From assembly GCF_000021965.1 (NCBI RefSeq), contig NC_011832.1, positions 930,001 through 994,000 of the forward strand: 64,000 nt of DNA, written 5' to 3'. The notes below the pieces were generated by a model. That model did no database searches. It had not been told where the DNA came from and saw only the letters and a list, made by a program, of their open reading frames with translations. Shown here piece after piece: positions 1 through 22,691 of the stretch. The stretch's first letter is position 1; each line of letters starts with the position of its first letter. The DNA comes from Methanosphaerula palustris E1-9c. GTDB taxonomy: Archaea; Halobacteriota; Methanomicrobia; Methanomicrobiales; Methanospirillaceae. A program made the translations under genes and the position numbers.

Positions 1-302
1 GCAGCGTACCGTTCTGCCTGGGTCAGGATGTTCTGCGGGCCGAGGGAGACCTTCTTGGCTTCGACGATCGCAACGATCACGCCGTCCACGCAGAGGGCAT
101 AATCGGCGGGACCGTTCTCGGTGGGGAACTCTTCGAGAGCGACGTTGTTAAAACTGGAGAGATCCATCCCCACTTTGAAGGGAGTGATCCTCCACCCTGC
201 AACCTTCAGTAAGGGATCGATCCGCTTCGTTCGCGTGACTCGCTCGCTCTCTTCAGTCCTGACGCAGTCGTGACGTCCCGTAATACTATCAGTAATATCT
301 GA
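1..302 (-). CDS. Type I restriction enzyme R subunit, N-terminal fragment (runs off window, no start codon)
   Basis: The minus-strand frame is open from an in-frame stop near 303-305 to the window edge. It reads IDPLLKVAGW, then ENGPADYALCVDG, then VIVAIVEAKK and LGPQNILTQAERYA. This is the N-terminal nuclease (PD-(D/E)xK-like) region of HsdR-type restriction proteins: the D of ADYAL and the E-x-K of VEAKK match the catalytic pattern. HsdR cleaves and translocates DNA with the HsdM/HsdS partners, which are not in the window. No ATG, GTG or TTG precedes the conserved IDPLL segment; the first in-frame candidates are GTG at 173 and ATG at 167, too late for a complete domain. The gene is therefore 5'-damaged, frameshifted or uses an unusual start. 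Family assignment is fairly secure; intactness is not. Confidence 0.6.
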
Positions 303-494
303 TCAGTACAGAGGCTGAACCGTTATGTGTTGCGGTTTGGTTCCAGCGAGATCGTGGAGAAGAGCATCACCTGTTTGAGTGAATCTGGTGCAATCGACGT
401 TTTCACGAAGTTCTTTCGTGTCTTTCCCTCCATCAAATGGAAAAAAAGGGAATCGTGATCTCACAAAAGCCGGCATCGTGGTATCCTGTACCCG

Positions 495-965
495 TCAAAT
501 ATAGAGCGCTGTAACCAGCAGGAGCGTCGGAACGATCAGATACAGAGCCCCGGGAATGAAATGCGCCCAGAAATCGGGGCGAAGTTCGAAAGCCAGCTCC
601 CTCAGTTCGTCCTCCGGGAAGAACATCTCGGGAGACCGGTGCAGAAACCCTTCGTAGATTCTGAAATAACCGAAGGTGAAGAATGAACTGATGCTGATGA
701 GAATAATCCGGAACACCCCGTTGATCGTCGCATCGAACGGAACATCGAACGACCCGAGGAGCGTAAACAGGATCGCGAACTGCGTGACCGGTAAGATCAT
801 CAGGACGATCCATGCCAGGACCAGACGATTGATGTTGTGGGATCGTCCCCGTATCGCCTGGTACGTGTCCCACGGCCTGTAGGTCTGGTGTGAGCGTTCG
901 ACAATCATAAAAAAATAGATGGCAAAGAAGAAACTGAATATCTGCTGGGCATCATTGAGCGTCAT
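495..965 (-). CDS. Small multi-pass membrane protein, function unknown
   Basis: 156 residues with four hydrophobic stretches, at about residues 9-22, 47-70, 83-102 and 133-155. The loop between the last two is charged (SPEMFFPEDELRELAFELRP). Conserved-looking soluble features are HQTYRPWDTYQAIRGRSHNINR between the first and second segments (shown as the region at residues 26-47). I do not recognise the family. It sits 68 bp downstream of the isochorismatase-like gene on the same strand, so the two could be cotranscribed. Codon use resembles neighbouring host genes. No catalytic motif is visible. Confidence 0.7.
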   Translation of the reverse strand: MTLNDAQQIFSFFFAIYFFMIVERSHQTYRPWDTYQAIRGRSHNINRLVLAWIVLMILPVTQFAILFTLLGSFDVPFDATINGVFRIILISISSFFTFGYFRIYEGFLHRSPEMFFPEDELRELAFELRPDFWAHFIPGALYLIVPTLLLVTALYI

Positions 966-1033
966 GATAATGGTCCGACACGGTTCGCACTCGGTAACGG
1001 TTCGGCCGGGGATCGTGCATGTCTATCTGTACC

Positions 1034-1708
1034 TCACTCCTTGGGTGGAAGCATCTCGTTGTTCGCGTAGGCACCGGAGGTATCGAGCAGGTTCCCCCAG
1101 CTCACCAGGTGTTCGCGGAAGATCATCGCATAGGGCCACCCCTGCGACTCGTCCCGACGCCAGTCTGCTTCGAGCTCGGCCCCGACAGACCACCAGTTCC
1201 GGATCTTCACCCCGGCCTGGGAGAGCGTGGCGATCGTGGCGTCGCGTTCGTGCGTGCTGACGGCTCCCGACGCGTCGATGACTGCATGGACGTCAAACCC
1301 TTCCTTCACGGCATCGAGTGATGGGAATTGCAGACAGGTCCCGTCGCTGATTCCTGCGATGATCAGCTTCTTCCGACCGGTCTCTTCGACGGCCCTGCGG
1401 AATGCCGGCCACCGCCAGGCGTTGATGACCCCTGTCCGTCGGATCACCGTAACATCCGGGAAGATCTGCTTCAATTCAGGAAGGATCGGAGCGTTGGGTC
1501 CATAATCCCTGCTCGTCGTCAAAATCACCGGCAATTTGAAATGTTTCGCAGTCTTTGCAAGCCCGAGGATGTTGTTCTTGAACTCTTCAGGAGTCATATC
1601 CCGGATCAGTTGCATGAGTCCGACCTGGTGATCGATCAGCAGAAGTGCGGCGTTCTCTGATGTGAGAACATCGGATGGTCCGATATTTTCCAGATATCTG
1701 TCTGTCAT
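1034..1708 (-). CDS. Isochorismatase-family cysteine hydrolase (YcaC-like)
   Basis: 224 residues of the isochorismatase-like fold. The first catalytic Asp is in ALLLIDHQVG (near residue 26), and the candidate nucleophile Cys is in AGISDGTCLQFPS (near residue 130). The pattern FKNNILGLAKTAKHF, LPVILTTS, and INAW matches Escherichia coli YcaC as I remember it, including KFKNNVLAL and NINAW. YcaC-type proteins are soluble oligomeric hydrolases of uncertain substrate. The start ATG at 1708 gives the normal family length. The usual catalytic Lys position is not obvious from inspection. It is followed by the membrane protein at 495-965. Substrate unknown. Confidence 0.85.
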   Translation of the reverse strand: MTDRYLENIGPSDVLTSENAALLLIDHQVGLMQLIRDMTPEEFKNNILGLAKTAKHFKLPVILTTSRDYGPNAPILPELKQIFPDVTVIRRTGVINAWRWPAFRRAVEETGRKKLIIAGISDGTCLQFPSLDAVKEGFDVHAVIDASGAVSTHERDATIATLSQAGVKIRNWWSVGAELEADWRRDESQGWPYAMIFREHLVSWGNLLDTSGAYANNEMLPPKE

Positions 1709-2121
1709 TCCTGGTTCCTCCAGATGGTGACCCTTATACGAGTGTCAGGAGATAAGGATTTTGTAACATATGTCGGGGGAGATTGCGGATCAGAGAACAG
1801 TAATCATCTAATTTTTCTCTGTGTATTTTTCATTCATCCGCTGGATGGTGAAGACATAGACATATCTATCACCCATTTTTCTCAAACCTCTTTTGAATTA
1901 AAAAGGACTCTATCGTGAATCTATCGTTATGGTTCCGAAGATTTCAGCGCCAGAGCGATCCCCTTTGCCCAGTCATCGATGGCATGCCAGTCCCGGAAAT
2001 CCCCCTTTTTGAAGAACTGCCCGGGCAGCCGGCAGCGTGCGCAGAGCCCTGAGTACAACCCCGCACCTGCCCGGGTTCAGGGCACCGGGGAAGATTTGGT
2101 GTTCCCGGGGATGGACGGTAT
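1709..2121. other. Intergenic, no gene recognised
   Basis: About 410 bp. The first part (1740-1920) is AT-rich, in keeping with promoter DNA upstream of the hydrolase at 1708. The rest is GC-rich with short open frames of no recognisable content. Nothing else is supported. Confidence 0.5.
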
Positions 2122-2325
2122 TACTTACTTCAGGGCCTTTTCAGGTGCCCATCGCCCCTGTCCGAATTCCTGCGTCTCTGTTCAGGTCTTCCCCTCAGCC
2201 CGGAGGGCGGTGAACCGCCGGGCGAGCCGGGCATCCTCCTCCTTCGTCCACGGTCGACCACGAACGCTTCGTTCCGGTTGTAATACTGGTGGAGTTTGTC
2301 CCCGTTCTGCTTCATTGTTCAGGCG
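2122..2325 (-). pseudogene. Deletion-derived remnant of a DNA methyltransferase gene
   Basis: This stretch is homologous to the methyltransferase gene at 25345-26329. Its left part matches the 3' end of that gene (about 25360-25509), and its right part matches the region encoding NGDKLHxxYNRNEAFVVD (about 26156-26215). The two parts join at GTCGACC (2253-2259). In the fuller copy GTCGACC occurs at 25503-25509 and again at 26156-26162, so the interval between them (653 bp) is missing here. The remnant translates NGDKLHQYYNRNEAFVVD and then runs out of frame. It cannot encode a functional enzyme. Confidence 0.85.
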
Positions 2326-2682
2326 AAGTCATGATGCGATGACGTATCATCCGATCGGAGAAGGGGAAGACGATAATCCCCGTCAATCGGAGAGATCGCA
2401 GCCGACCCAAAAGGGGACGATCATATCGATTCGATCCCATGATCTACCGCTCTTGAGGAGCAGTTGAACGGTTTCTCAACCGGGTCAAGCCATTCAGAAA
2501 GATCTCACCTGGACACGAAGAATCATTTCGAGCGTTGGTCATCATCGCCTGCATATTAGAGGAGACTTTTGGGATGAAATCTTTGAGATGAGGACATAAT
2601 CGGGTTATCCAACACCGCAAACAAAAAGGAAAGTCTATATGGTTCCTAATTAGAATTTCTTCTGAAATATGAGGAAAGCATC
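2326..2682. other. Intergenic region upstream of the surface protein
   Basis: No gene seen. The last 60 bp hold the promoter-like element and ribosome binding site of the next gene. Confidence 0.5.
2634..2682 (+). promoter_or_regulatory. TATA-like box and ribosome binding site of the surface protein gene
   Basis: TCTATATGG at 2634-2642 resembles an archaeal TATA element, and GAGG at 2671-2674 lies 8 nt before the ATG at 2683. The flanking DNA is AT-rich, unlike the coding DNA. Confidence 0.45.
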
Positions 2683-5220
2683 ATGACACTGATACACAGA
2701 AGGATGACATGGCCGCTTCTTATGCTGGCCATCATCTCATGCCTGTTGATGATCGCACCGGCATCGGCTGAATCCTTTCATCTGACCGGAACCCTGATCA
2801 ATGGATCCATCAATGGGAACACCAATCAGCCAATAGCAAATACGAATGTCACATTCCAGATAAATTCACCTTTTTTTCAAGGGACTATCAATGGGACAAC
2901 AGAGACAGATAATCTCGGAAACTTCGATCTCTCCTTTGACCCGGGAATTGGTATACCCCCTTTCATTTCGATCACGTGCTCTGCCACAACGATTGGATAT
3001 TCTGTATACCAGTCCCAGGCTCCAATCATAGTGATGGTAGGTTACGCTAATATTGGCTCCATCTATCTCACCCCACTACCAGTTCCGATAACTCTGACGG
3101 GAACTGTTGTTGATAAATTCTCCGGTCTACCAGTGCCTAATATGCAAATTGACTCCGGCAGCGCCTCGGACACCTCCAAACAGGACGGGAGTTTCACCCT
3201 CTTTGAAGCTCCGGAGACAGGAGGTTCCATGGACTTCGAGATCTATGCAGATAGATACTATGAAGGTCACCAGGACACATTATCTGTCTCTGAAGAAGAG
3301 ATCGCACGTGGATCAAAGGACCTCGGAACCGTCACTATCACGCCACATTATGGAGGTTACGTCACTGACAAATCCACCGGTCAGCCTTTGTCCGGCGTCC
3401 AGCTCACCATCACCAACGATCCGTCATCGCAGGTTGGAAACGGGGGGACGGGAACATCTGATGAAACGGGATATTACCGGATAAGACTGCCCGCGAAGGG
3501 CATCTCTTCGAACAATAGCCTGCGTGATACTGGTGCTGACAATTCTGTTCGGTATCTGGTTGCAGTCAAGGATGGATATCAGCTCTATTCCGCCAATGTC
3601 ACGATACGGGATGAAGAGGCCCCCTTTAACGTCGCGCTCTCCCCGAGCTTTGCAGCGAACTTCCTCGCACTCGGCCATGTGGGCCAGGCCCCGTACTCTG
3701 TCCGATTCATGGACCAGTCGACCGGCTCGCCGACCGCCTGGAAGTGGGACTTCGGCGACGGCACCACCTCGACCGAGCAGAACCCGACCCATATCTACAA
3801 CCAGACCGGTGTCTACAACGTGGCGTTGACGGCATCGAACGATAAGACGAGCGACACCTGCACCCAGTACCGGTGTATCATTGTGAACGCCGTACCAGTG
3901 GCGAACTTCACCGCGAACGTGACCGCCGGGCAGACGCCCTTCACCGTGCAGTTCACCGACCAGTCCACCAGCGGTGCGGACGGGTTTCAGTGGCAGTTCG
4001 GCGACGGGACCACCTCGACCGAGCAGAACCCGGTCCACACCTACACGAGCCCGGGATCGTACTCGGTGATGCTGACGGTATCAGTACCTGACTACGGCAG
4101 TGTCTTCGCTCAGAAGACCGGGTACATCTCGGTAAGCGGTCCGTCATCGGTCGGGTTCACGGCGAACGTCACCGCCGGCCTCTCCCCGCTCGCCGTGCAG
4201 TTCAATGAGTCGACGAACGAATCGGTCCAGTATTCCTTCTGGCATTTCGGGGACGGGGCCACCTCTGCAGAGAAGAGCCCGGTCCATGTCTATGATGCAG
4301 CCGGCAGTTATTCGGTCTCGCTGATGACCGTCGGGTCGAACGGCACCGAGGTGAAGACGGTCGATAACTTCATCAATGTCAGCGCACCGGTGACCCCGAC
4401 GGTCACGCCCACAGCGACTGCCACGGCGACGGTGACCCCGACGCCGACCGGAGCCCTGCCGGTGGCCAACTTCACGGTCACCACCGGAGCCCCGGGGTCG
4501 TCCGACATCACGGTCACCGACGCCTCGACGAACGCGACTTCGGTCCACTACAGCCTCGGTGACGGTGCCACCACCGCCTATCCGACCTTCCGGTACACCT
4601 ACTGGCAGGCCGGAACCTATACGATCGAACAGACCGCAACCAATGCGGTTGGGTCCTCGAAGAAGAGCATCGTCGTAACCGTACCGGTTGCGGCTCCAAC
4701 AACAACGGTGACCCCGACGGTGACAGTCACAACCACTGTCTCGCCGACGGTGACGACGACCAGTCAGGCTTACAACGGCCCGCACACGATCCCCGGGAAA
4801 CTGCAGGCTGAGGACTACGACCTCGGCGGTGAAGGGGTCGCCTACTATGACACGACCCCTGGGAATGAGGGCGGGGTCTACCGGCATGACGATGTCGATA
4901 TCGAGCAGCTCGATACCGACGGCTCGCCGAACGTCGGCTGGATCCGATCCGGTGAGTGGATGGCCTACACGGTGAACGTCGCCAGCACCGGCACCTACAC
5001 CGCCGGGTTCAGGGTCGCCTCATCACACTCCGGTTCATCCATCAAAGTCTATGTCGACGACGGCACCACCCCGGTGGCGACCGTGAACGTCCCGAACACC
5101 GGCGACTGGCCGTCCTTCCAGACCGTCTCGGTGCCGGTGACGCTGCCGGCAGGACAGCACCGGCTCAAATTCTCATTCCCGACCGACTATGTGAACATCA
5201 ACTGGGTCACCTTCGCCTGA
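2683..5220 (+). CDS. Secreted PKD-repeat surface protein with C-terminal CBM6-like module
   Basis: 845 residues. A signal peptide covers about residues 1-29 (hydrophobic core LLMLAIISCLLMI, cleavage after ASA). Residues 30-320 look like several carboxypeptidase-regulatory/CNA-B-type beta domains (repeated TLTGTVVDKFSGLPVPN-like starts). Four PKD domains follow at about 325-404, 405-486, 489-567 and 594-667, with the signature WDFGDGTTSTEQNP and its variants; the fourth is divergent. Thr/Pro/Val-rich linkers lie at about 568-593 and 668-700. The last 140 residues (QAEDYD, GWIRSGEWMAYTVNV) resemble carbohydrate-binding module family 6/35. A cell-surface adhesion or polysaccharide-binding role is inferred. 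There is no C-terminal membrane anchor or sortase-type signal, so attachment is unexplained. The 3' half is much more GC-rich than residues 30-300, which suggests a mosaic origin. Confidence 0.88.
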   Translation: MTLIHRRMTWPLLMLAIISCLLMIAPASAESFHLTGTLINGSINGNTNQPIANTNVTFQINSPFFQGTINGTTETDNLGNFDLSFDPGIGIPPFISITCSATTIGYSVYQSQAPIIVMVGYANIGSIYLTPLPVPITLTGTVVDKFSGLPVPNMQIDSGSASDTSKQDGSFTLFEAPETGGSMDFEIYADRYYEGHQDTLSVSEEEIARGSKDLGTVTITPHYGGYVTDKSTGQPLSGVQLTITNDPSSQVGNGGTGTSDETGYYRIRLPAKGISSNNSLRDTGADNSVRYLVAVKDGYQLYSANVTIRDEEAPFNVALSPSFAANFLALGHVGQAPYSVRFMDQSTGSPTAWKWDFGDGTTSTEQNPTHIYNQTGVYNVALTASNDKTSDTCTQYRCIIVNAVPVANFTANVTAGQTPFTVQFTDQSTSGADGFQWQFGDGTTSTEQNPVHTYTSPGSYSVMLTVSVPDYGSVFAQKTGYISVSGPSSVGFTANVTAGLSPLAVQFNESTNESVQYSFWHFGDGATSAEKSPVHVYDAAGSYSVSLMTVGSNGTEVKTVDNFINVSAPVTPTVTPTATATATVTPTPTGALPVANFTVTTGAPGSSDITVTDASTNATSVHYSLGDGATTAYPTFRYTYWQAGTYTIEQTATNAVGSSKKSIVVTVPVAAPTTTVTPTVTVTTTVSPTVTTTSQAYNGPHTIPGKLQAEDYDLGGEGVAYYDTTPGNEGGVYRHDDVDIEQLDTDGSPNVGWIRSGEWMAYTVNVASTGTYTAGFRVASSHSGSSIKVYVDDGTTPVATVNVPNTGDWPSFQTVSVPVTLPAGQHRLKFSFPTDYVNINWVTFA

Positions 5221-5244
5221 AAATCGGCGAAGAACGGTCATCCC

Positions 5245-5251
5245 TTTTTTT
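5245..5251 (+). terminator. T-rich terminator of the surface protein gene
   Basis: A run of seven T residues 25 bp after the stop codon, in the typical style of archaeal intrinsic termination. Confidence 0.45.
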
Positions 5252-5407
5252 ACCGCATGGTAACGACGGATCGTGCGAGGGGCCGGTTTTCTGATGTGAG
5301 CACAGGGTATTTGGGCTCTTTTGATATCCTCCAGCGCTACCCCAATACTCCATTCCTCCATCGGCCAGGGATGCACATCTGTCCAATTGTGAGGGTTTCA
5401 ACAGAGC

Positions 5408-5415
5408 AAAAAAAA
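5408..5415 (-). terminator. T-rich terminator of the histidine kinase gene
   Basis: Eight consecutive A on the plus strand give U8 on the kinase transcript, 15 bp past its stop, followed by a second U-rich run. It lies tail-to-tail with the previous gene. Confidence 0.45.
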
Positions 5416-5429
5416 TATTTTTTCGTAAT

Positions 5430-8400
5430 TTACAACGGTTTCTCTGGAATCGTGAAGAGGAATGTGCTCCCGCTCCCTTCTTCAGACTCGACCCAGATCC
5501 TGCCGCCGTGCCGCTCCACAATCCGCTTGACGACCGCGAGGCCGATCCCGGTGCCAGGGTATTCTGCCTTGGTGTGGAGCCGTCTGAAGATCATGAAGAT
5601 CTGCTCGTGATATGCAGGATCAATCCCGAGCCCGTTGTCCTTCACTGAAAAGGTCCAGCCCTTTCCGGTACGCTCGGCATTGATCCAGATCTCCGGCTCC
5701 CTCTCCTCCGGGCAGTACTTCATCGCATTTCCGATCAGGTTCTGGAACAGTTGGACCATCTGGGAGAGGTCCCCCTGTATCGATGGCATCGCTCCCCGAG
5801 TGATCCTGGCATTACGTTCACGGATGGGAATGATGAGGTTTGATATGGCTTCTTCGATTGCATGCTTCATATCAACCCGCTCGACCGGTCGCATCCCCTG
5901 ATTGATACGGGAATAGAGGAGAAGGTCATTGATCAACGCCTCCATCCGCAGCGCACCGTCGACAATGTAGCCGATGAACTCATCAGCATCTGCATCCAGT
6001 TGTCCTTTATACTGCCTTTCGAGAATTTGTGAGAAACAGGTCACCATCCTGAGCGGTTCCTTGAGGTCATGGGAGGCGATGTACGCAAACTGTTCCAGTT
6101 CCTGGTTGCTCGCTTTCAGGTTATCGGCGATGGTCTTGAGGACCTCTTCGGCCTGCTTGCGCTCGGTGATATCATTGAAGAGGATGGCGACTCTTCGACT
6201 CTCCGGGCCGCCGACCCGATATGCGGAGACCTCATACCAGCGATTCAATGCTTTTGCTTCATTCTCAAATCGGACCGGTTCGCCAGTCAATGCGATCGTT
6301 CCATAGATTTCAAACCAGTGTTCCTCATGGTTCGGAGCAAGATCACGCATCAATCTCCCCTGGGCCTCATGCAATCCGGTCTGTCTCTCAAACGCCGGAT
6401 TGATCTCCAGGAAGCGGTAATCGATGGGACGTTCGTCTGCATCGAAGAGCATTTCGATGATGCAGAAGCCTTCGGTCAGGGTGTTGAAGAGCATGCGATA
6501 CTGCTCTTCCGACTGGCGCAGCGCCTCCTCTGCCCATTTCCTTTTGGTGATGTCCTGTCCCTGTGCAATCGTCGACTGGACAGTCTCTCCATCTGCTCCA
6601 AAGATGGCTGCAGAATTCCAGAGGACGGTTCTGACTTCCCCGTTCTGGTGGAGAATGGGGATCTCCACGACCTCCATCCTCTCTCCGTCGTTGGTCTTTC
6701 TGATGATCTCCAACACCGGTTCGGCGAATTTTTTGGGGAAGAGGAGTTCGAGCGGTTGGCCGATGACATCTGCCGCCTTCCTGCCGATCAGCAGTTCGAA
6801 GGCATGGTTGAACCTGGTGATCCGGAACGCCGGATCCCAGACGATGATCGGGGCGTTCGCGTACTGGATCAGGTTTTCGAGGTACTGGCCCGTCTCCCTG
6901 AGTTCATGCTCCATGGTCGTCAGCTCGTCGATGCTCTGGCGCAGTTCCTCCTGGGTTGCCGTCAGTTCCTCGTTGAGCTCACTGAGTTCCTGGTTCTTCT
7001 CGAGCAGGTCTGCCTCAGCACGATCCCGTTCTGTAACATCCAGCACCTGAGAGAGGATCGAAACGAGTTCTCCTGTTTCGTCCCGCAGGGCCGAGTTGTA
7101 CCATTCGCAGGTGATGACCGCCCCGTCCTTTCGATAGTTGCGGTTGGTATGCTTGTTCCGCGGGGCCTTTCCGTTCATCATATCAGCAGAGATGGAGGCG
7201 ACCCGATCCACGTCCTCTTCGTATACCCAGGGGATTTCGTCGATCGTTCTCCCCATGACCTCTGCCATGGTCCAGCCAAACACTTTTTCCGCTTCATCCG
7301 ACCAGCGGGTAACACGGAACTGTGCGTCAAATTCCACGACCGCCAGGGGAGAATTCTCTATATGATGGGTAAGGCGGAGGTGGGCTTCGTGCAGTGCCTC
7401 CTCGGTTCGCTTCCGTTCGGTGATGTCCTGTCCCTGTGCGATCGTCGACAGGACAGTCTCTCCGTCAGATCCAAAGATGGCTGCAGAATTCCAGAGGACG
7501 GTTCTGATCTCTCCGTTCTGGTGGAGAATGGGGATCTCCACGACCTCCATCCTCTCTCCCCGGGTGGTCTTTCTGATGATCTCCAACACCGGTTCGGCGA
7601 ATTTTTTGGGGAAGAGGAGTTCGAGCGGTTGGCCGATGACGTCTGCCGCCTTCCTGCCGATCAGCAGTTCGAACGCGTGGTTGAACCGGGTGATCCGGAA
7701 TGCCGGATCCCAGACGATGATCGGGGCGTTCGCGTACTGGATCAGGTTTTCGAGGTACTGGCCCGTCTCCCTGAGTTCATGCTCCATGGTCGTCAGCTCG
7801 TCGATGCTCTGGCGCAGTTCCTCCTGGGTTGCCGTCAGTTCCTCGTTCAGGATATGGAGACCCTCGTTCTTTTTGAGGAGTTCTTCATCAGCCTGCCTGA
7901 TCCCGGTGATGTCCCGGCTGAAGGCAGCAATGCTGCTCACTGCACCGGCCTCGTCAAAGACCGGGCAGAAGGTGTGGATAAAGATGGTGCCGGCCCTTAT
8001 ATCTTCAAACTGGACCGATCGGCGTGAGCTGATCACCTCTTCGATCCGTGCCCTTCGTGCCTGAGCCAGTTCAGATGTCATGAACTCAGAGTACTGGTGA
8101 CCGATGACTTCGCCTGTGTCCTTCCCGCCCAATCGTACCAACGCCGTCGGATTCGCCATCAGGATGGTGTCATCGGTGCCGAACAGCCAGATCGACTCCT
8201 TTGCAGCTGCGAGGATCGCCTGTGCGGTCTTCTCCTGTTTGCGAAGTGCTTCCTCTGTCTGTACCCGGACGATCGAGGCACCGAGGGCATAGGCCACCTG
8301 TTCAAGCACCCTGACCTTCTCCGCCGATATCATCCCCTCCTGGTGATCAGCGAGGTGGAGCAGCCCCATGATCTGGTCCCCTTTCCGGATCGGAATGAGC

Positions 8401-9691
8401 GCGACCGATTCGTATCCGACCATAGTGCAGGTGTTTCGGGTCTTTTCCTTCTCCTCATCAGATTCGGTTGCGCGGAATTTTGTTGTGGCGTTGATCATGA
8501 ACGACCCGCCGGCAGTGTAGAACGGCAGGGAGGGATCGGTCGTGCCTTCGATCACGTTGATACAGATGCAGTGATCGGTCCTGACCGAGAGCGGGTTCTC
8601 CTGTTCGTAGAAGTCGCGGGAGAAACCAGCGTACGCCAGGTAAGGGATGTTCCCCTGTTCATCGAGGATCCGGACCCCGATCGAGTCGCATCCGGTGTAC
8701 TCCTGCAGGGTGCGAATGTACTCTTCGAGGAGCGGCTGGAGGGTATGGTGTTCCTCCGCACTGTGCAGGACCCGGTTTGAGAGGGAGAGGATCTCGCGGT
8801 TACGCTTCTGCTCGGTGATATCGGTGATGAAGGAGTAGTAATACTGGGGGTTTCCCTCTTTGTCTGTGACGAGGTGAACGAGGAGTTCAATGGCGACCCG
8901 TGTGCCGTCTTTTTTGATATACTCCTTCTCGTACCGGACTGGTTTGCCTGTGCGGTGGAGTTCTTCAAGATTTTTCCTCTCAACATCCAACCATTCCGGA
9001 GGGGTCAGCGTTGCCGTCCAGTCCATTTTCTGCAGTTCGTCTGCTGTATAGCCGGTCAGCTCCTCGAATGCATGGTTGACGATCCCGAGTCTCCCGTCCA
9101 GGTATCCGACCCCAAACGGCTGGGACGATCTGTCGAGGATATCTGAAAGGAACGTGTTCCGCTCTAGGCTCTCCAGGAGCGCTCTCTCATTGGCGAGCAA
9201 TTGATCATTGTTCGCCTGCAGTTCCTCACTCATCGCGATGAGCTCCTCGTTGATGGCAACGAGGTCTTCGTTCTTGTGAACAGGCGTCTCTTCGGCCTCG
9301 TCGAGGTCTCTGCCGATCCCGTCGGAGAACCGGGGGTGACCCCTGCATCCATTACCCGGCGGTCCTGTCTCCGGGCACCGGTAGGAGCAAGACGGGAGAA
9401 GAGCGCGAGGCTCGCCGGGATGATCCGGGCAGATGCAGCAGGTGATATCAGGGTGGTCGGGTGACCAGAGCGTGTGCTCACGATCTGGACCAGACAGGTC
9501 TCGCCGACAGAGTGGCTGCCCCTGAGGCTGAACCCGAGTTCGCTCGCTTCAAGGATCGCGATCCCGGCGAGCGTGGCGGTGACAAAGCCGGCGGCTCTGG
9601 TTATTCTCCAGGGGTTCATATCACCCCATCCTGTAGTGTTCTCGGAGGACCGTCCGAACCCTGCTGTTTTTGAACCTTCGTCTCGAGCCAT
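5430..9691 (-). CDS. Multi-PAS/GAF sensor histidine kinase (probable N-terminal frameshift)
   Basis: The main frame runs from ATG 9233 to 5430 (1267 residues). Order: coiled coil, PAS (about 45-165), GAF (about 175-325), then further PAS domains to about 1020, ending in a kinase core. The phosphoacceptor His is at about 1055 in YIASHDLKEPLR, and the ATPase boxes are NLIGNAMKYCPE, VKDNGLGIDP and GTGIGLAVVKRIVERHGG. It autophosphorylates on His and should pass the phosphate to an unlinked response regulator. No membrane segment lies in this frame, so it is probably cytoplasmic. The coiled-coil frame stays open upstream of 9233 (VHKNEDLVAINEELIAM) to a stop near 9530 but has no ATG, GTG or TTG. 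An overlapping frame starts at ATG 9691 after GAGGAAAG and a TATA-like box. The gene probably begins at 9691 and shifts frame between about 9530 and 9240. An in-frame internal duplication is described under repeats. Confidence 0.85.
6548..6982 (-). repeat. Direct repeat within the histidine kinase, copy encoding the later PAS unit
   Basis: About 435 bp, nearly identical to 7421-7855. The offset is 873 bp (291 codons), so the frame is kept. The unit encodes a coiled-coil linker (ATQEELRQSIDELTTMEHEL) plus one PAS domain (FELLIGRKAADVIGQPLELL). Confidence 0.85.
7421..7855 (-). repeat. Direct repeat within the histidine kinase, copy encoding the earlier PAS unit
   Basis: Partner of 6548-6982. 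The intervening DNA (about 6983-7420) encodes a different PAS domain that is not duplicated at the same identity. The few differences include GERMEVVEIPILHQNGE-I/V-R and the change TTRGE to TNDGE. Confidence 0.85.
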
Positions 9692-9911: not shown

Positions 9912-9977
9912 GTACGACCGGGTCGTGCGTTGGCGGACGGTGGCCATGCCGGCTGGTTTGTGCGAGGGGCCGGCCGG
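9912..9977. repeat. GC-rich palindromic repeat, copy 1 (right half only)
   Basis: Begins at ACGACCGG and carries the conserved GCGGACGGTGGCCATGCC and GCGAGGGGCCGGCCGG blocks. The left arm present in copies 2-5 is missing. The following DNA to about 10145 shares blocks with the DNA after copy 3, for example GGATTATCC and TGGAATTAGGTTGTG. Confidence 0.8.
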
Positions 9978-10665: not shown

Positions 10666-12168
10666 ATGACTATGAAAACAACCTCTGCCAAGAGAATGAC
10701 AACAATTGGAATATTTGTCAGTAGTGTGCAAAAGGAATTGAATGAGGAGAGGATAGCAGTTCGTGATTATATTAATACGAACCCGCTTCTCAGGCTATAT
10801 TTTGACACATTTCTCTTTGAAGATCTCCCAGCACGTGATTGTAAACCGGACGAATTATATTTGGATGAAGTCGATGGATGCTCGATATATCTGGGGATTT
10901 TTGGTAATGAATATGGCTTGGAGAACAACCAGGGTGTTTCTCCTACAGAACTTGAATTTGAACGGGCAACAGAGAAAAGTAAATACCGGTTAATTTTTGT
11001 TAAGGGGAAGGATGATGTCGAGCGTCATCCGAAGATGCAGAATCTCATCAACCGGGCAACACCTCATGTTGTGCGAAAACGTTTCATCAATACAGATGAA
11101 TTGAAAGAAGAATTGTTTAATGCATTAGTTCAATTTCTGTGTGACAGCAAAATAATCCCCAGTACACCATTCGATGAATCCGCCTGCCCCGGATCGACAT
11201 TAAAGGATCTATCCTATGAAATAATTGAGTGGTTCGTCGCCGTTGCAAGAAAAGAACGGCATTTCCCTCTCCAGATAGATACTCCTCCAGAATTGGTTCT
11301 GCGACATCTCGAACTGCTCGATGGGACACAACCGACCAATGCAGCGGTTCTCCTCTTTGGGTCAAATCCCCAAAAATTTTTGCAAACTGCAGAAGTCAAA
11401 TGCCTTCATCTTCATGGTTCGGTTATCGCAAAGCCAATTCCTTCGCATCAGGTTTTCACTGGAACTGTTTTCGAACAGGTTGACAAAGCAACCGATTTCG
11501 TTCTTTCAAAACTAAATCGTTTTGTCCCGGCCCGTGATGAGGCCCCGGCCAGTGAAACCAGTTACGAGATTCCCAAAGAAGTAATCAATGAAGCCATTGT
11601 CAATGCCATCGCTCACCGGGATTATACATCTTCGGCGAGCATTCAGGTCTATGTTTTTTCTGATCGTATCGAGATCAGAAATCCTGGCGAGCTTCCTCCG
11701 GACCTAACCTTTGAAAACCTGAAAATAACTCATAACTCCAGGCCCCGTAATCTCCGGATTGCGAATGCATTATTTCTCTCGCACTATATCGAAAAAATCG
11801 GATACGGAACTCTCCAGATGATTGCTGGATGTAAGGGCGCTGGTTTGCCGGCGCCGGATTTTTCTCAAAGTGGTAGCGATTTTGTTGTTACGCTCTGGCG
11901 CGACTGGCTGACTGATGAGGTTATGACAAAGCTGGGGATCACTACCCGACAAAGAATTGCTATTCAATTAGCGAAAGATTCAGGACGTGTGAACAGTACT
12001 GATTATTCGAACCGTGCGGAGATTTCACGACAGACTGCAGTGCGTGACTTGAAGGATCTCATTGGTAAAGGTATCCTTGAAAAGAAAGGAGTAACCGGAA
12101 AGGGTACTTATTACTCATTGTGCAAAGGACTGAGAAAGGCACCATACGATTCAGAATCCGGAGAATGA
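10666..12168 (+). CDS. DUF4062 / AlbA-like ATP-binding / winged-helix protein
   Basis: 500 residues in three parts. Residues about 13-100 (IGIFVSSVQKELNEER, YLGIFGNEYG, SPTELEFERA) match DUF4062, a TIR-like N-terminal domain seen on predicted signalling and defence proteins. The middle (about 180-410) is of the Schlafen AlbA_2/RecG-C-type ATP-binding family, with VINEAIVNAIAHRDY as the GHKL-type N box and IEIRNPGELPP and IEKIGYGTLQMI following. The C-terminus (about 425-490) is a winged-helix DNA-binding domain (RAEISRQTAVRDLKDL). It is probably a DNA-binding regulator or effector with nucleotide sensing; a defence-related role is inferred from DUF4062 and the island setting. The start could instead be ATG 10696, just before the conserved TIGIFVSS; upstream ATGs lack a clear ribosome binding site. 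Confidence 0.85.
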   Translation: MTMKTTSAKRMTTIGIFVSSVQKELNEERIAVRDYINTNPLLRLYFDTFLFEDLPARDCKPDELYLDEVDGCSIYLGIFGNEYGLENNQGVSPTELEFERATEKSKYRLIFVKGKDDVERHPKMQNLINRATPHVVRKRFINTDELKEELFNALVQFLCDSKIIPSTPFDESACPGSTLKDLSYEIIEWFVAVARKERHFPLQIDTPPELVLRHLELLDGTQPTNAAVLLFGSNPQKFLQTAEVKCLHLHGSVIAKPIPSHQVFTGTVFEQVDKATDFVLSKLNRFVPARDEAPASETSYEIPKEVINEAIVNAIAHRDYTSSASIQVYVFSDRIEIRNPGELPPDLTFENLKITHNSRPRNLRIANALFLSHYIEKIGYGTLQMIAGCKGAGLPAPDFSQSGSDFVVTLWRDWLTDEVMTKLGITTRQRIAIQLAKDSGRVNSTDYSNRAEISRQTAVRDLKDLIGKGILEKKGVTGKGTYYSLCKGLRKAPYDSESGE

Positions 12169-12542: not shown

Positions 12543-12690
12543 GTGCCAGCACCGGCTTGCCCTGCTTCTTCCTCGTGTCTTGTTCCCCTGCCACGGCCAG
12601 CCGGCCTCTTTGTTCACCGGATGGCAACGACTGGATCGTGCGTTAGCGGATGGTGGCTATGCCGGCGAGCCGTGCGAGGGGCTGGCCGGG
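12543..12690. repeat. GC-rich palindromic repeat, copy 2
   Basis: Full-length but diverged copy: TGCTTCTTCCTCGTGTC leader, CCACGGCCAGCCGGC left arm, ATGGCAACGA centre, GCGAGGGGCTGGCCGG right arm. It lies downstream of the HicA-like gene, which converges on it. The DNA after it, including the 3' end of that gene, is shared with the DNA after copy 5. Confidence 0.85.
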
Positions 12691-14120: not shown

Positions 14121-14420
14121 CCTGGGAACCTCATCATGCTCTGATGAAAGAGTATCTGAGTATATTCATGACACTTGGTTTCTGGGGTATTAAGGATTTT
14201 TAGTCGTGGCAAGACTGTTGAAATTGTGCCTTGCCGAATACCATGTAACAGAGAGATGAAGTGATTTGATCCTGGCAGTATGTATTGCTTGGGGACACGG
14301 TAGCAGGGGATCCGAATCCTGATCCAGCTTTCTCTGTCAATGCTTTTCGGAGAAGGTATTCGAGCCGCTCGGTCATGCTCGGGAAGCACGGGTCGGCTGT
14401 CGCCCTCCGTCGCTGGATCG
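14121..14420. other. Intergenic, no gene recognised
   Basis: Promoter region of the 353-aa gene at its left end; the rest shows only short unconvincing open frames. Confidence 0.4.
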
Positions 14421-14520
14421 GCCGGCCGGCAGCGCCGCTTCGTTCACCGCATGACAACGACCGGATCCTTGCGGTGGCGGACGGTGACCATGCCGGCGAG
14501 CCGTGCGAGGGGCCGGCCGG
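14421..14520. repeat. GC-rich palindromic repeat, copy 3
   Basis: Clean copy of the core: CCGGCCGGC at the left end (14422-14430), CACCGCATGAC, GGATCCTTGCG, GACGGTGACCATGCCGGCG, and GCGAGGGGCCGGCCGG at the right end. The two ends are inverted relative to each other, so the roughly 100-bp unit can fold as an imperfect hairpin. Confidence 0.88.
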
Positions 14521-14560
14521 TTCTTGATCCTGCATCTTCACTGGATTATCCATCTCAGTT

Positions 14561-14716: not shown

Positions 14717-15202
14717 ATGACGATCCAGCTGACAGATGATATGATTGGATCGTTGCTCGCTGAGCGGAAAGAATTACCTGATGATTTCCTACTTCATTCA
14801 AAGTTAAAATCCAGACACGGACACAAAGAGTTTGGAAGAGAAATAATCGGAGAGAAGGGATCACTGTTCCGTCTTGTCTACCGGCAGAGCGAGTTAAACC
14901 AGCTGGATTTTTCAATAATTCTTCTGTACATCCCAAAAGGATCGAACCAGCAGTTCCGTCTGCGCAGATATAATGGAAAAAGTCATGAACATACGAATCC
15001 TATAGAGAAAAAAACCTTCTATGGATTCCATGTCCATACTGCAACCGAACGCTACCAGCAGTCTGGCAATCGGGAAGATACCTATGCTGAGGAGACGAAT
15101 CGGTATGCAGATTATCACGGTGCGATCGAATGTATGTTGGAAGACTGCGGGTTTGTGAATTCGACGAACGACCGGAGCCTTTCACAATGGGGGATGAACT
15201 GA
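14717..15202 (+). CDS. DUF6978-like protein
   Basis: 161 residues. The body ([80 protein letters not shown]) matches the small alpha/beta family I know as DUF6978, typically found beside DUF1828 proteins in accessory regions. Function unknown; the rich beta-hairpin core suggests a compact single domain. The gene overlaps or abuts the DUF1828/1829 gene that follows. A separate 10-codon frame with a better ribosome binding site (GGAGACTA then ATG at 14707) overlaps the start, which may mean translational coupling or a misplaced start. Confidence 0.7.
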
Positions 15203-15987
15203 TGTCAGTCCAGACAATCACACAGAATTTCCGGCAGAAAGTGTGCGATCAGGTTCGCGTAGAGGCCGAAGGTGTCGACCGGTACCGGGTGTTCACTCCG
15301 TTCCTTTTTGAGGATGGGGATCATCTCGTTGTCGTTCTGAAACTGGAGGAGGGGCGATGGGTGCTCTCTGATGAGGGACATACTTTCATGCATCTCACCT
15401 ACGACCTGGACGAGAAAGATCTTCGAAGCGGGAGCCGGCAGAAGATTATTTCAAATGCCCTCGCTGCATTCTCTGTCGAGGACCGCAATGGAGAACTGAT
15501 CCTTTCAATCAACAATGAGCAGTTTGGCGATGCCCTGTACAGTTACGTTCAGGCGCTGCTCAAAATTTTTGATATCTCCTATCTGTCACGGGAGCGTGTC
15601 CGATCAACATTCATGGATGATGTACATGATTTTGTTCAGGAACATATTCAAAAAGGGCATGTTCATGTTGACTGGCATGATCCGATCCATGATCCTGACA
15701 GTAAATATAGTGCGGATTTCATGATCGAAAGTGAATCCGGGCCGATTCTTGTGTACGCGTTATCGAATGATAGCCGGGTGAGTAATGCAACGATCAACCT
15801 GCTCATGTTTGAAAAATGGGGGCTGAAATTCCGGTCTATTGGTATCTTTGAGGACCAGGAAGAGATCAATCGGAAGACGCTTGCGAAGTTCACGGATGTC
15901 TGTGAGAAGCAGTTCTCCAACCTGTATGGGAACAAGGACCGGCTCCTGAAATATGTACAGGAGTCAGGCGGAATGGTGACGGCATAG
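15187..15987 (+). CDS. DUF1828/DUF1829-domain protein
   Basis: About 266 residues from ATG 15187 (MGDELMSVQ), overlapping the end of the DUF6978-like gene by 16 nt; ATG 15202 ([10 protein letters not shown]) is an alternative start. Residues 15-105 ([33 protein letters not shown]) are DUF1828; the rest, with [20 protein letters not shown] and [20 protein letters not shown], is DUF1829. The C-terminal part (D of ADFMI, then an E-containing strand) is suggestive of a PD-(D/E)xK nuclease-like core, but this is only an impression. The pairing with DUF6978 recurs in accessory islands, so a defence or toxin-antitoxin role is inferred. A palindromic repeat begins 4 bp after the stop. Confidence 0.7.
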
Positions 15988-15990
15988 TAT

Positions 15991-16144
15991 TCCCGGCACT
16001 GTCTCGCCATGCTTCTTCCCCGTGTCTCTCTCTTCCCTGACACGGCTGGCCGGCAGTGCCTCTCCTTTCACCGCATGGCAACGACCGGATCCTTGCGTCG
16101 GCGGACGGTGGCCATGCCGGCGAGCCGTGCGAGGGGCCGGCCGG
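15991..16144. repeat. GC-rich palindromic repeat, copy 4
   Basis: Full copy with leader CTCGCCATGCTTCTTCCCC, left arm GGCTGGCCGGCAGTGCC, centre ATGGCAACGACCGGATCC and right arm GCGAGGGGCCGGCCGG. It starts 4 bp after the DUF1828/1829 stop codon, so it may act in the 3' end of that transcript. Confidence 0.88.
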
Positions 16145-16205
16145 CTCAATCTGAAGATGGAGACATCACCCAGAACCCCGATTCCGGTGAAGATGATTTG
16201 CTGCA

Positions 16206-16590: not shown

Positions 16591-16740
16591 GTGGCACCGG
16601 CTCGCCATGCTTCTTCCCCGTGACTCTCGTTCCCCTGCCACGGCCGGCCGGCAGCGCCTCTTCGTTCACCGCATGGCAACGACCTGTTCGTGCGTCGGCG
16701 GACGGTGGCCATGCCGGCGAGTGGTGGGAGGGGCCGGCGG
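16591..16740. repeat. GC-rich palindromic repeat, copy 5
   Basis: Leader CTCGCCATGCTTCTTCCCC, left arm CGGCCGGCCGGCAGCGCC, right arm partly changed (GTGGTGGGAGGGGCCGGCGG). It is followed by DNA shared with copy 2, including the hicA-like 3' end. Confidence 0.85.
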
Positions 16741-17439: not shown

Positions 17440-17995
17440 TGGTGACAGTCGGGGTTTAGGAGAATGGAAATCGAGAGATCCTGGGAGCCCGGATTACTGC
17501 CATGTGAAAATGATAGTTTCTGGTCCGGGCTCTTCTATGAGATGAAAGAACGAGGATTGAATAGCGTACAACTGGTCATATCTGATTGTCATCAGGGAAT
17601 CCAAACGGCAGTGTCTACGGTATCTTGGGAGTATCAAGATAAATTCCTGATGTGCATGCAACCCATGCAGTTTTGAGGAATATTCCTAAAAAAAACCAAC
17701 GGGAGGCTACTAAACAACTCAGGGAAGTATATGGATTCGAACAGAAACTCCAGATGTTTGCCGATTCACAGAATTCACAAAATTACCAGAGAACTGCCAA
17801 CACTATCGAACGATACTTTCCAGGATTCCTGAACTACATGGCATTCCCTAAACAGCATCACAAAAGGAATGGGACTACCAATGTCATGGGATGGGGTCAA
17901 TGAGGAATTGAAACGTGGAACCAAAATAGAAGGTGCGTTCCTCAACGATGAGTCACTCCTCAAAAATATAGGTACCTCCTCATGGACGTGAATTA
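17440..17995 (+). pseudogene. IS256-family (mutator-type) transposase, C-terminal remnant
   Basis: Recognisable pieces in successive frames are FWSGLFYEMKERGL, VQLVISDCHQGIQTAV (the second catalytic Asp region), then after a shift LRNIPKKNQREATKQLREVY and NTIERYFPGFLNYMAF, then after another shift NEELKRGTKIEGAFLNDESL (the Glu region). At least two frameshifts and stop codons interrupt the frame, and the N-terminal third is missing, so the element is dead. Confidence 0.85.
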
Positions 17996-18152
17996 AGAGT
18001 GCATGACTGGCAGAAAGATTTGGCAATGGAGAAGGGATAATCAGGCGAGGATACTGGGCTCGTTGAAATTACAGTAGGTATGGCACATTTCTGGTTAAAA
18101 ATTGACCTTAAAAATCGATTATTTATTATAATCTAAATCTTTATTTATTCGT

Positions 18153-21100
18153 ATGGTTTTGAAAGAGTTTAATATACTGTTTGCCGGCGAAAAAGTTAAA
18201 AATGAATTATTCTATTGTGATAAATATGAGAATAATTTGATAAAAAACAATTTGGGCATTCATGAACAATATACACATGTTTCTGATGATGGTGGAGTAG
18301 ATATAATTCCTAAATTATTGGATTATCTTAATCCCTCGACTTCAAATCCTGACAGAAAATATAACAGTTATTGCCTGGGGAGTACTGAACACTATATTTC
18401 TCGAGAAATAACAAAGAAATATAGTCAAAAATTTTCATGTAAAAATTTAAAACAACTTAATCACATTGTAGAATTTGAAGAATATCGTGGAGAGAAATTT
18501 CTAGGAATTGCAGCTAAGAAATCTGATAATGATACTTCAAATGAAGATAAACAAAAATTTGGGAATGGAGATGAAGGATTTAATCAATATAAAGACTTGA
18601 AAGATTTGAACTCTGAATCTGCTAGATATTTATTTATTGACGATCTTGGATATTCTTTTGCTTCGGATTCTAAAATTTTTAATTTATTAAATTCCCTCAA
18701 ATTTGACAACATAATTGTTTTTTGGAAATTATCCTATAATACCATATTAAAATTATCAAAAAGTGACGATGGGAAAATTGATGATGGGAAAATTGATGAT
18801 GGATATAAATCCTTATTAAATGGAAAAAATGTTGTAACCTTTTTAAATGCAAGAGATCTTCGTGCTTGCGGTGCAAATATTTCTTATAGATTATCTTGGG
18901 AGAAAACTACAGAAGAATTGTTTGATCAAATGAAAAATAACCCAGTCTTTGATTCAATAATGAATTATTCTAAGATAATAATAATCAGAATTGGATTAGA
19001 AGGGGCACTTGTCATTATAAAAAAGGGTGAAGAATTAGAGTCATATTTATTTTTTGATCCTTACTGTTTAGAGGATGAATTCATTGAAAAACATGTTGGT
19101 AATGTTCAGGGGATTTCTAGCGCATTTTGTGCTGGTTTTATAGATTCATTTATTGATGATATAAATGAATTAATTCATTTTTATGATGATGAAAATAATA
19201 ATAAAAATAAAAATAGAGAAATGGAGATTTTAAATAAATTCAAAAATGGAATCCGCGATGGTTTAGGATTTTCAAGGAGAATGTGGTTTTGGGGGTATGG
19301 AAGAGATGATAAACCCACTCGAATCGCTGATGAATTTGTATTATCAACAAAACCATGTGAATCTGGAGATTTTTGTTTAAGTAAAGAGGAGATGAATATA
19401 GTAAAACAAGATGTATCTTTTAAATTCTCCTCATTTAAAATTCCAGGGGATATTTTAGATGAACAAAAAGGTACATGGACAATTCTTGAAAAAAATAGAA
19501 GGGCAATATCTTCGCAAAAATCATTTGGAGAAATTGCATACAAAATCGTTGATATGGGTATTGAAAAATTCAGCGAGAACAATACTATAAACGAAGAATC
19601 ACTTTTTCCAATTTATGAAAAAGGAGGTTTAATTTCTGTCGATCGAAGTGAAATTGAAAGTTATCAAAGTATAAGAAATATTATATCTGAGTATGTAGAT
19701 TCAGAGAATATAAAAAATCCTCTTTCAATAACAGTTTTTGGTCCTCCGGGGTCAGGAAAGTCATTTTCAATTGAAAAAATAATTGAGAGTTTAGATAATG
19801 ATAAAATTGATTTTAAAACATTCAATTTATCACAGTTTACAAGAAATGAACAGTTAACAACTGTCTTTCATATAATTAGAGATGTTTGTCTTAAAAATAA
19901 AATACCTGTAATATTTTTCGATGAATTTGATTGTAAAGTGAATAATAATAATCTAGGTTGGTTAAGGTTTTTTTTAGCCCCAATGCAAGATGGATTATTT
20001 TTCGATGGAGAAAATTTTCATCCCATAGGAAGAAGTATTTTTGTTTTTGCAGGGGGAATCTACAAAAGTTATGAGGAATTTATTTCAGTTGTGCGAAAAT
20101 CAAAAAATAAAGATCTAAAATTGTCAGATTTCTTAAGTAGATTAAAAGGTCATATAAATATAATCGGTTGTAATAAAACCGGAGAAGATGAATATTTATA
20201 CAAAATTAGACGAGGGATATTACTTCGTTCTGTTATTAAAAAGGTTAGGCCAGATTTGATTATTAACGGTATCCTTTCAATTGATCAATGTGTTGAACGT
20301 GCATTTATTAGTTCATCCAATTATTATCATGGTGCTCGTTCAATTCAGGCAATTGTTGAAATGAGTAATTTAAACAGTTTAACGAAAATTGGTCCATCCG
20401 CTCTGCCTCTGGATGTACAACTTGAACATCATATAGATGCTGAAATATTCTTAAATTTAATACATCGAGAACTTCATCTAAACAAATTAATCAAGAAGGA
20501 AATTCCTAATTTAAATCTGAATGAAGTAGAAAAAATGTTTGTTGATAGACAACGTGGATATTTCAAACGTCCAAACTTAATAAATAAGTTAATAAAGTCA
20601 TCAGCCGAATTATGGAATTTAATAGTTGAAAATAAACCTAAAAGAACTCTATCTGCATTGACATTTCCAAATAGGTACTATTTAAAATGGAGTGATCTGG
20701 ACATATCTAGAAGAATTGTCATTTTTAAAGAAATATTAAAATTGTTAAATTATTTAATTCAAGATAAGCACTACAATAAGAAAAATAATTATCAAATTAA
20801 TCAAACAATAATATTAAATTCCATATCTCAATTTAAAACCAGAGAAAATTCCTTTATTTGCGATTTTTTTCTTTCGGGTTTGAAAGATAACATTCTTTCG
20901 CATAGAATGATTGATATAATATCTGACATGATGTATTCTGGAAAAGATGCTCATAGGATTAGATCCTTTGATACATATTTTTTAAATATTTCAAAGAATC
21001 TGTCAACAGAGGATCCATCAAGGGAGGAGCTGACATGGATTGCAGATATCCTTATTCAAAAGAATACTGATGATGCCCCTTCAGTTCTTTCTGAAATTGA

Positions 21101-21161
21101 CAAAATAAATGATATTATTAATCAACTTGATTTAAATGGATTTCAGGTATATAAATCCTAA
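18153..21161 (+). CDS. AT-rich AAA+ ATPase with degenerate sugar-kinase (PfkB/ribokinase)-like N-terminus
   Basis: 1002 residues. Residues 1 to about 345 have the layout of a ribokinase-like fold: opening strand ILFAGEKV, a central YLFIDDLGYSFASDS, a late IIIIRIGLEGALVIIKKGEE (the usual G-x-x-G-A strand pair), and GISSAFCAGFIDSF where active kinases have the anion-hole/catalytic D-T-x-G-A-G-D. That catalytic Asp is missing, so the domain may bind a ligand without catalysis. A linker (about 346-500) includes MWFWGYGRDDKPTR and VDRSEIESYQSIRNI. The AAA+ core has Walker A GPPGSGKS at 530-537, Walker B VIFFDEFD with D590-E591, and a sensor-1-like INIIGCNKT. The C-terminal 270 residues are helical. 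Base and codon use are extremely AT-rich against GC-rich neighbours, a sign of transfer. It stands alone between transposon remains. A conflict or defence role is inferred. Confidence 0.85.
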   Translation: MVLKEFNILFAGEKVKNELFYCDKYENNLIKNNLGIHEQYTHVSDDGGVDIIPKLLDYLNPSTSNPDRKYNSYCLGSTEHYISREITKKYSQKFSCKNLKQLNHIVEFEEYRGEKFLGIAAKKSDNDTSNEDKQKFGNGDEGFNQYKDLKDLNSESARYLFIDDLGYSFASDSKIFNLLNSLKFDNIIVFWKLSYNTILKLSKSDDGKIDDGKIDDGYKSLLNGKNVVTFLNARDLRACGANISYRLSWEKTTEELFDQMKNNPVFDSIMNYSKIIIIRIGLEGALVIIKKGEELESYLFFDPYCLEDEFIEKHVGNVQGISSAFCAGFIDSFIDDINELIHFYDDENNNKNKNREMEILNKFKNGIRDGLGFSRRMWFWGYGRDDKPTRIADEFVLSTKPCESGDFCLSKEEMNIVKQDVSFKFSSFKIPGDILDEQKGTWTILEKNRRAISSQKSFGEIAYKIVDMGIEKFSENNTINEESLFPIYEKGGLISVDRSEIESYQSIRNIISEYVDSENIKNPLSITVFGPPGSGKSFSIEKIIESLDNDKIDFKTFNLSQFTRNEQLTTVFHIIRDVCLKNKIPVIFFDEFDCKVNNNNLGWLRFFLAPMQDGLFFDGENFHPIGRSIFVFAGGIYKSYEEFISVVRKSKNKDLKLSDFLSRLKGHINIIGCNKTGEDEYLYKIRRGILLRSVIKKVRPDLIINGILSIDQCVERAFISSSNYYHGARSIQAIVEMSNLNSLTKIGPSALPLDVQLEHHIDAEIFLNLIHRELHLNKLIKKEIPNLNLNEVEKMFVDRQRGYFKRPNLINKLIKSSAELWNLIVENKPKRTLSALTFPNRYYLKWSDLDISRRIVIFKEILKLLNYLIQDKHYNKKNNYQINQTIILNSISQFKTRENSFICDFFLSGLKDNILSHRMIDIISDMMYSGKDAHRIRSFDTYFLNISKNLSTEDPSREELTWIADILIQKNTDDAPSVLSEIDKINDIINQLDLNGFQVYKS

Positions 21162-21531: not shown

Positions 21532-22691
21532 ATGGTCTCACAAACCGGGAGTAGACCCTGTACTGATGTTTCTTACATTCATCCGAAAGAATGTTGCGAT
21601 CTGGCTGTAGCGGCTCTGAACCGTCAGGTGAATATTCTGATTCAGGGATCCCTGACCCAAACTACTATCTTTCGTACACTCGTTGGGATAGCCATGGAGC
21701 GACAGTCAATCCATTCGATCAGTTCGCTTCTGGAGAAGAGTCCGTGTGAAACCTCACTTCGGTATCATCTTTCCAAACTCCACATGGATGACCTCGAAGT
21801 CACAAATTCGGCGATTCTAACTCATTCGATCTCCTCGGTCCTTATGCCTGGAAAGGCATACACGTTCGCCATTGATTACACCAATGATCCATATTATGGG
21901 ACGGTTTCACCCGAGAATGAGGGATACGTCATCCGAAGTCGGCTCAAGAAATCAACGAACGAGTTCTATTCCTACGTTACGGTCTATGCAATCACCCAGG
22001 ACCGCCAGGTTACCCTGGCGGTCTACCCTGTGACACGGGGTACATCCAAGGTCGCATATATCGCCCGCTGTCTGGATGCAATCACGACAGCGGGTCTGAA
22101 AATTCGGGCACTCTGTCTGGATCGGGAATTCTACGCACGAAAGGTAATCGACTTCCTGACAACCGTTCAGATCCCATTCATCATCCCAGTCCGAAAACAC
22201 AGTCGAGCGATGAAACAACTCCTGAACGGAACAAAATCACGGTTTGAAGAGTATATTATGCGTGGAAAACCCTCGCTTCATCTGAACATTGCGATAAACG
22301 TGAAGTATGCAAACGGAAAATGAGGGAAACATGGGGTCGAGAACCTTGGGTATGTGGTACATGGCATATCCTGGGATCCCCAGCGGATATTCATAAAACC
22401 TACTGATCCAGGTTTGTGATCGAGTCGTCGTACCGGAAGCGTAATCAGGTCAAACCCAGGACATCAACCCGCAATCCGGTGATCCGATATCTCTTCGCTA
22501 TCATCTCGTTTCTGCTCAAGAATCTCTGGATAGCGGTGCTTTGGACACGATTCTCACCCGTGAAACAAGGTCCTGGAACCATTGAGATAGGCGCGTTCAG
22601 ATTTGATCAGTTCAAGTTGTTTGTCTGGGAGGCCGTACGATTAATCTTAAAGGTCGTGATAAAAATTCCTGCCCTCAGAAACCCAGTATAA
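21532..22691 (+). pseudogene. ISH3-type (IS4-group) DDE transposase, broken
   Basis: The first frame (21532-22323, 263 codons) has the first Asp region FAIDYTNDPYYG and the second ALCLDREFYARKVIDFL. It ends in a TGA after KYANGK. The frame continues beyond it with GKHGVENLGYVVHGISWDP and then shifts near 22414, where FVIESSYRKRNQVKPRTSTR (Glu region) and NPVIRYLFAIISFLL complete the family pattern. One nonsense codon and one frameshift, with most of the length otherwise conserved, suggest recent inactivation. Confidence 0.85.

Follow-up and report, generated by a model that had tools for sequence, protein, structure and literature searches.

Genomic Locus of P0001

The gene encoding P0001 is located in a low-GC stretch (~10–25 kb) of the 64-kb window, the term used here for the whole stretch of DNA that was analysed, and its frame is open throughout, with 1002 codons and no internal stops (Table 1). 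Its GC content is 28%, with values of 0.37, 0.28, and 0.19 at the three codon positions, a pattern that is uniform across all three parts of the gene, compared to 0.55 in positions 1–9000 of the window, 0.59 in positions 26000–64000, 55% in the window overall, and ~55–59% in the genome (2.92 Mb, single contig). The relatives of P0001 and the kinds of IS element present suggest that the host is a methanogenic archaeon. The composition is thus foreign to the host, as the preliminary description of this DNA had stated. An AT-rich, TATA-like stretch is seen by eye just 5′ of the ATG codon (18110–18152), with no clear ribosome-binding site seen by eye in the same segment, which may represent a leaderless archaeal promoter.

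Table 1. Coordinates of P0001, its parts, and the neighbouring features of the island (window numbering).
Feature	Coordinates	Strand	Basis or remarks
P0001	18153–21161	+	1002 aa: pseudo-PfkB, AAA+, and divergent C-terminal tail
PfkB/ribokinase-fold N-domain, aa 1–345	18153–19187	+	AF2 and Foldseek
AAA+ module, ~aa 486–770	19608–20462	+	Pfam, Foldseek, conserved positions
C-terminal tail, aa 771–1002	20463–21158	+	Place of tandem RyR in relatives; none recognisable here
P0005, DUF4062 + HATPase_c_4 + HTH protein	10666–12168	+	Pfam; sole DUF4062 match of the genome
Mutator-family transposase, broken (IS remnant)	17464–17903	+	Fragments, 5′ of P0001
ISH3-family transposase	21532–22323	+	Profile match 3–224 of 298, 3′ of P0001

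The gene is flanked on both sides by IS remains, in agreement with the preliminary description, and the ISH3-family transposase has four near-full copies elsewhere in the genome (88–90%). The DUF4062 protein that had been noticed in the island is P0005, encoded 6 kb upstream of P0001, with a DUF1828 gene and IS debris between them. In P0005, HATPase_c_4 and HTH follow DUF4062, and the protein resembles the Argonaute-associated SIR2 models of PADLOC. DUF4062 has been described as a TIR-like NADase acting against phages (PMC13174449, preprint 2026), and the domain in P0005, present in a gene separate from P0001, corresponds to the NADase domain of Swarozyc, a system in which NADase activity is portal-triggered and an auxiliary domain is present. 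A partnership of P0005 with P0001 is possible but unproven; islands gather such genes. Of the two DUF1828 genes expected, one was located (15130–15987, with a PADLOC candidate-defence match, PDC-M24B) and a second was not found, and no HicA gene scores above the Pfam cut-off within the window, so that the HicA-like gene proposed for the island has to be dropped. A GC-rich interspersed repeat of ~100–150 nt occurs in the window at 9914–9977, 12549–12689, 14419–14523, 15995–16147, and 16593–16738; ten of its 12 genome copies lie on the same strand in C1:913.8–946.7 kb, and two at 626 kb.

N-Terminal Pseudo-PfkB Domain

The AF2 model of residues 1–478 of P0001, built with 71 family sequences (pLDDT 80, pTM 0.85), yielded 177 matches at E ≤ 1e-3 in a Foldseek search of the PDB, and all 50 of the 177 that were listed are ribokinase-type carbohydrate or nucleoside kinases, the best with E of 6.1e-10. 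This structure check bears out the degenerate PfkB-like fold suggested earlier for the N-terminal part, although Pfam PfkB models give no match to the P0001 sequence. The GD...D and GG motifs of the PfkB/ribokinase superfamily are found in relatives of P0001, whereas P0001 itself lacks the catalytic GxGD motif, and the position of the catalytic Asp is occupied by Ser323 (19119–19121), located within the segment GISSAFCAGF. The corresponding column of the family alignment contains Ser in 52 of 71 sequences and Asp in only 3, one of which, L058, has a textbook GVGDAFATGL motif. Since Asp is gone in 68 of 71 relatives, its loss, correctly noticed in P0001, is a trait of the family and not a peculiarity of this protein. 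The family-wide absence of the catalytic Asp also speaks against a metabolic kinase, and this reading was rejected.

P0001 retains 30 of the 44 positions of the N-domain that are conserved in the family (≥90% in relatives), and it keeps the conserved polar residues R112, D164, R237, S248-W249-E250, and E307. The N-domain of its nearest relative, the Methanoregula protein L033, is equally diverged (64%), thus the divergence is shared and is older than the P0001 locus.

AAA+ Module

The AAA+ core, previously placed at residues 346–500, in fact occupies residues ~486–770. It is matched by Pfam PF00004 (AAA) with E of 1.2e-6, beyond the curated cut-off, and its Walker motifs are intact as claimed, with Walker A (GPPGSGKS) at residues 530–537 and Walker B (FFDEFD) at residues 588–593. 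P0001 has Walker A, Walker B with its DE pair, and the fold expected of an AAA+ ATPase, with Foldseek matches of the module to Vps4, Msp1, and sigma-54 activators. Residues R663 and R729 are the candidate Arg finger and the candidate sensor 2, respectively; both are among the 94 of 111 positions of the AAA+/C-terminal half conserved in at least 90% of relatives that P0001 retains, as are Walker A and Walker B.

C-Terminal Tail and RyR Domain

A typical member of the family is ~860 residues long and consists of a pseudo-PfkB domain, an AAA+ ATPase, and a C-terminal tandem RyR (R12-type). Most of the ~80 members that were inspected carry this tandem RyR, in which repeat 1 is weak and repeat 2 strong, with the consensus AxxEHxRW...GW...KlhpxLvxW...kdxxxv. 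In the paralogue encoded in the same genome, P0002, PF02026 is matched at 1.1e-13 and animal ryanodine-receptor chains or repeats at 1.7e-15. Phage RyR-domain proteins bind or cleave 2′/3′cADPR, and the ligand residues of one of them, RyDEP, are H75, W78, H100, and D117 (PMC13232231, preprint 2026). The ligand residues (EHxRW, K-x-H, D) are present in the relatives of P0001, and the His, Trp, His, and Asp of the family consensus appear to fit those of RyDEP when compared at the level of the sequence motif. Because the tandem RyR corresponds to a known cADPR-binding fold (PMC13232231), the C terminus is the probable sensor in the relatives.

P0001 shares with the family the homologous N-domain and AAA+ core, but not the C-terminal tandem RyR. 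Neither Pfam nor a family-specific profile detects RyR in it, its C terminus has no Pfam match, and a search for RyR in the whole genome yielded P0002 as the sole match. The predicted helix pattern of the tail ends in a strand similar to that of RyR; nevertheless, the hhalign score of the tail against RyR is no better than that of shuffled sequence, and the assignment of the tail as an RyR domain was rejected. A Methanosarcina clade of the family is also devoid of RyR, and in L033 the contig stops before the position of the second repeat. The label of RyR absence requires at least six changes on the starred branches of the tree, where several rows are truncated at the edge of a contig or may be frame-broken. 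Judged by these comparisons, P0001 is a divergent, apparently sensor-less member of the family, in which RyR has been lost beyond recognition.

The model of the tail consists of low-confidence helices, compatible with the large helical C terminus described before. The same description saw a possible sensor in the dead kinase fold and suggested that the C-terminal 270 residues may hold the effector; in the form considered here, the C-terminal 230–270 residues would be a toxic effector. The retained polar residues of the N-domain would suit such a sensor, and the tail belongs to no known family and found no homologue when 394 genomes of the phylum were searched, but no catalytic domain was recognised in it, and the relatives carry RyR, a binding module, at the same place. 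An effector in the tail is thus unsupported, the polarity is probably the reverse of that proposed, and we consider this arrangement improbable.

Distribution and Phylogeny of the Family

A motif scan of genome contigs identified at least 356 confirmed relatives in bacteria and archaea, the best 80 of which were retained for study; these loci are the best matches and not a random sample, and many of their contigs are short. They originate from Clostridia, Chloroflexota, Chlorobiota, Acidobacteriota, Actinomycetota, Planctomycetota, and methanogens, and relatives on plasmids are found in Methylobacterium (with the record name 'RyR domain-containing protein') and Streptomyces. A handful of the 394 genomes of the phylum contain clear homologues. 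A single, divergent relative was found when viral contigs were searched with the family alignment, and none when these contigs were searched with P0001 alone or phage records with P0002. P0002 is encoded at C1:664310, 284 kb from P0001, with 44% identity in the matched stretch; with this second copy and so many relatives, P0001 is not an orphan.

In the tree, P0001 and L033 are placed together (100/99), apart from P0002, although their finer placement is unsure because both are on long branches. On this topology, a recent duplication of P0002 was rejected as the origin of P0001. As judged from the sequences compared, P0001 was acquired separately.

Gene Neighbourhoods

Neighbouring genes at the 80 loci were scored with profiles built in this analysis. 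A SLOG-like gene is adjoining or fused at 20 of the loci, a TrkA_N-RyR gene is nearby at 13, a TIR neighbour at 11, and large STAND-like WD40/TPR proteins of one cluster (TIR/DUF4062 STAND) at 21. Taken together, one or more of these neighbours are present at 33 of the 80 loci, that is, at 33 of 49 outside the Clostridia clade and at 0 of 31 inside it; the latter value is an internal control on the profiles and also limits the claim of immunity for the family as a whole. Pfam confirms TrkA_N + RyR, TIR, and DUF4062 among the neighbours, and the N-termini of the STAND proteins match DUF4062 in 15 of 29 cases and TIR_2 in 9 of 29. In four AAA-RyR proteins (L069, L080, L100, and L105) a SLOG-like domain is fused C-terminally, behind RyR, and in an archaeon from the taxonomic family of the window host AAA-RyR, TrkA_N-RyR, and TIR are encoded within 10 kb. 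This survey of homologues fits the earlier suggestion of a ligand-triggered immune component, as far as the family context is concerned.

Two loci from Anaerolineae (L075 and L099) contain a compact same-strand operon of AAA-RyR, SLOG-like, TrkA_N-RyR, and TIR genes, followed by a STAND-cluster gene; the TrkA_N-RyR protein has hydrophobic N-terminal stretches. This operon is a good candidate defence system, as yet uncharacterised.

The members of the Clostridia clade are solitary, with varied neighbours, as might be expected if the family were made up of AAA+ remodellers for housekeeping or stress, regulated by the binding of nucleotides and with no link to defence. Such a role is improbable in view of the patchy spread of the family and the repeated linkage with TIR, DUF4062, and SLOG across several phyla.

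The usual partners (TIR, SLOG, TrkA_N-RyR, or an adjoining NADase) are absent beside both P0001 and P0002. There is no TIR or SLOG within the window, and a single sub-threshold TIR fragment was found genome-wide. Together with the missing RyR, the IS remains on both sides, the long branch, the odd composition, and the modest number of conserved N-domain positions retained, this absence could mean that P0001 is an acquired gene in decay. The break-up of the island by IS elements would have cost it the sensor and the partners, and it would now do little. However, the uninterrupted frame, the uniform codon-position GC pattern, and the intact active-site residues of the AAA+ module argue against decay, and the equal divergence of the N-domain in L033 predates the locus. 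We regard this explanation as unlikely.

Relation to Known Systems

Burroughs et al. (2015) reportedly described nucleotide-centric conflict systems in which SLOG, TIR, and RyR domains occur, and these component domains are common to the P0001 family and its neighbours. As in Thoeris (TIR and SLOG effector), TIR and SLOG-like genes are found beside relatives of P0001, whereas the P0001 locus itself has no TIR and SLOG-type effector. Similarly, DUF4062 genes resembling the Swarozyc NADase (PMC13174449) are located beside relatives and, in one case, in the window, but no such operon surrounds P0001. Most family members, such as P0002, share with RyR/R12 proteins (PF02026), including phage RyDEP (PMC13232231), a domain with the ligand residues; in the family, however, RyR forms one protein with an AAA+ motor instead of acting as a sponge or glycosidase by itself, and P0001 has no RyR. 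In the literature searched, an AAA-RyR component was not found within the described Thoeris or Swarozyc, nor was a description of the pseudo-PfkB-AAA-RyR architecture, a 2015 comparative-genomics survey that may touch on it being outside this scope. An assay of a family member was likewise not found in that literature. PADLOC contains no model for such proteins, and the family is apparently undescribed.

Proposed Mechanism and Implications

The simplest reading of the family, given the binding of cADPR by RyR (PMC13232231) and the NADase activity of DUF4062 (PMC13174449), is that of an AAA+ machine under the control of an ADP-ribose-type signal. Infection would activate a TIR or DUF4062 NADase, and the resulting ADP-ribose-type nucleotide would be bound by the RyR domain. 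This binding would switch the AAA+ motor, which would assemble and spend ATP on remodelling a target, while the dead kinase fold would hold either this target or a ligand. We infer that the signal is bound, that signalling runs in this direction, that the motor is switched, and that the family has an immune role.

P0001, with its motor and kinase fold and no recognisable RyR, would either answer another input or be losing its function. As its usual partners are absent and the link to DUF4062 is suggestive only, it is best viewed as rewired or decaying. Taken as a whole, the explanation that we favour, with P0001 as a divergent branch of the widespread pseudo-PfkB, AAA+, and RyR family and with this family as the ATP-driven part of NADase immunity sensing ADP-ribose-type signals, is about as likely as not. 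More tentatively, we can speculate that cells have in this family a new type of receptor for ADP-ribose signals made by TIR or DUF4062, with RyR driving the AAA+ motor, and that the branch of P0001 swapped the RyR input for another.

The family offers ready operons for testing. Should the AAA+-RyR proteins of bacteria and archaea indeed be receptors of cADPR signals, they would match, on the side of the host, the RyR sponges of phages and may be the source from which these sponges were derived. The same reading would point to the partners with which many orphan TIR and DUF4062 NADases communicate, and would suggest an immune ancestry for the repeats of animal ryanodine receptors.
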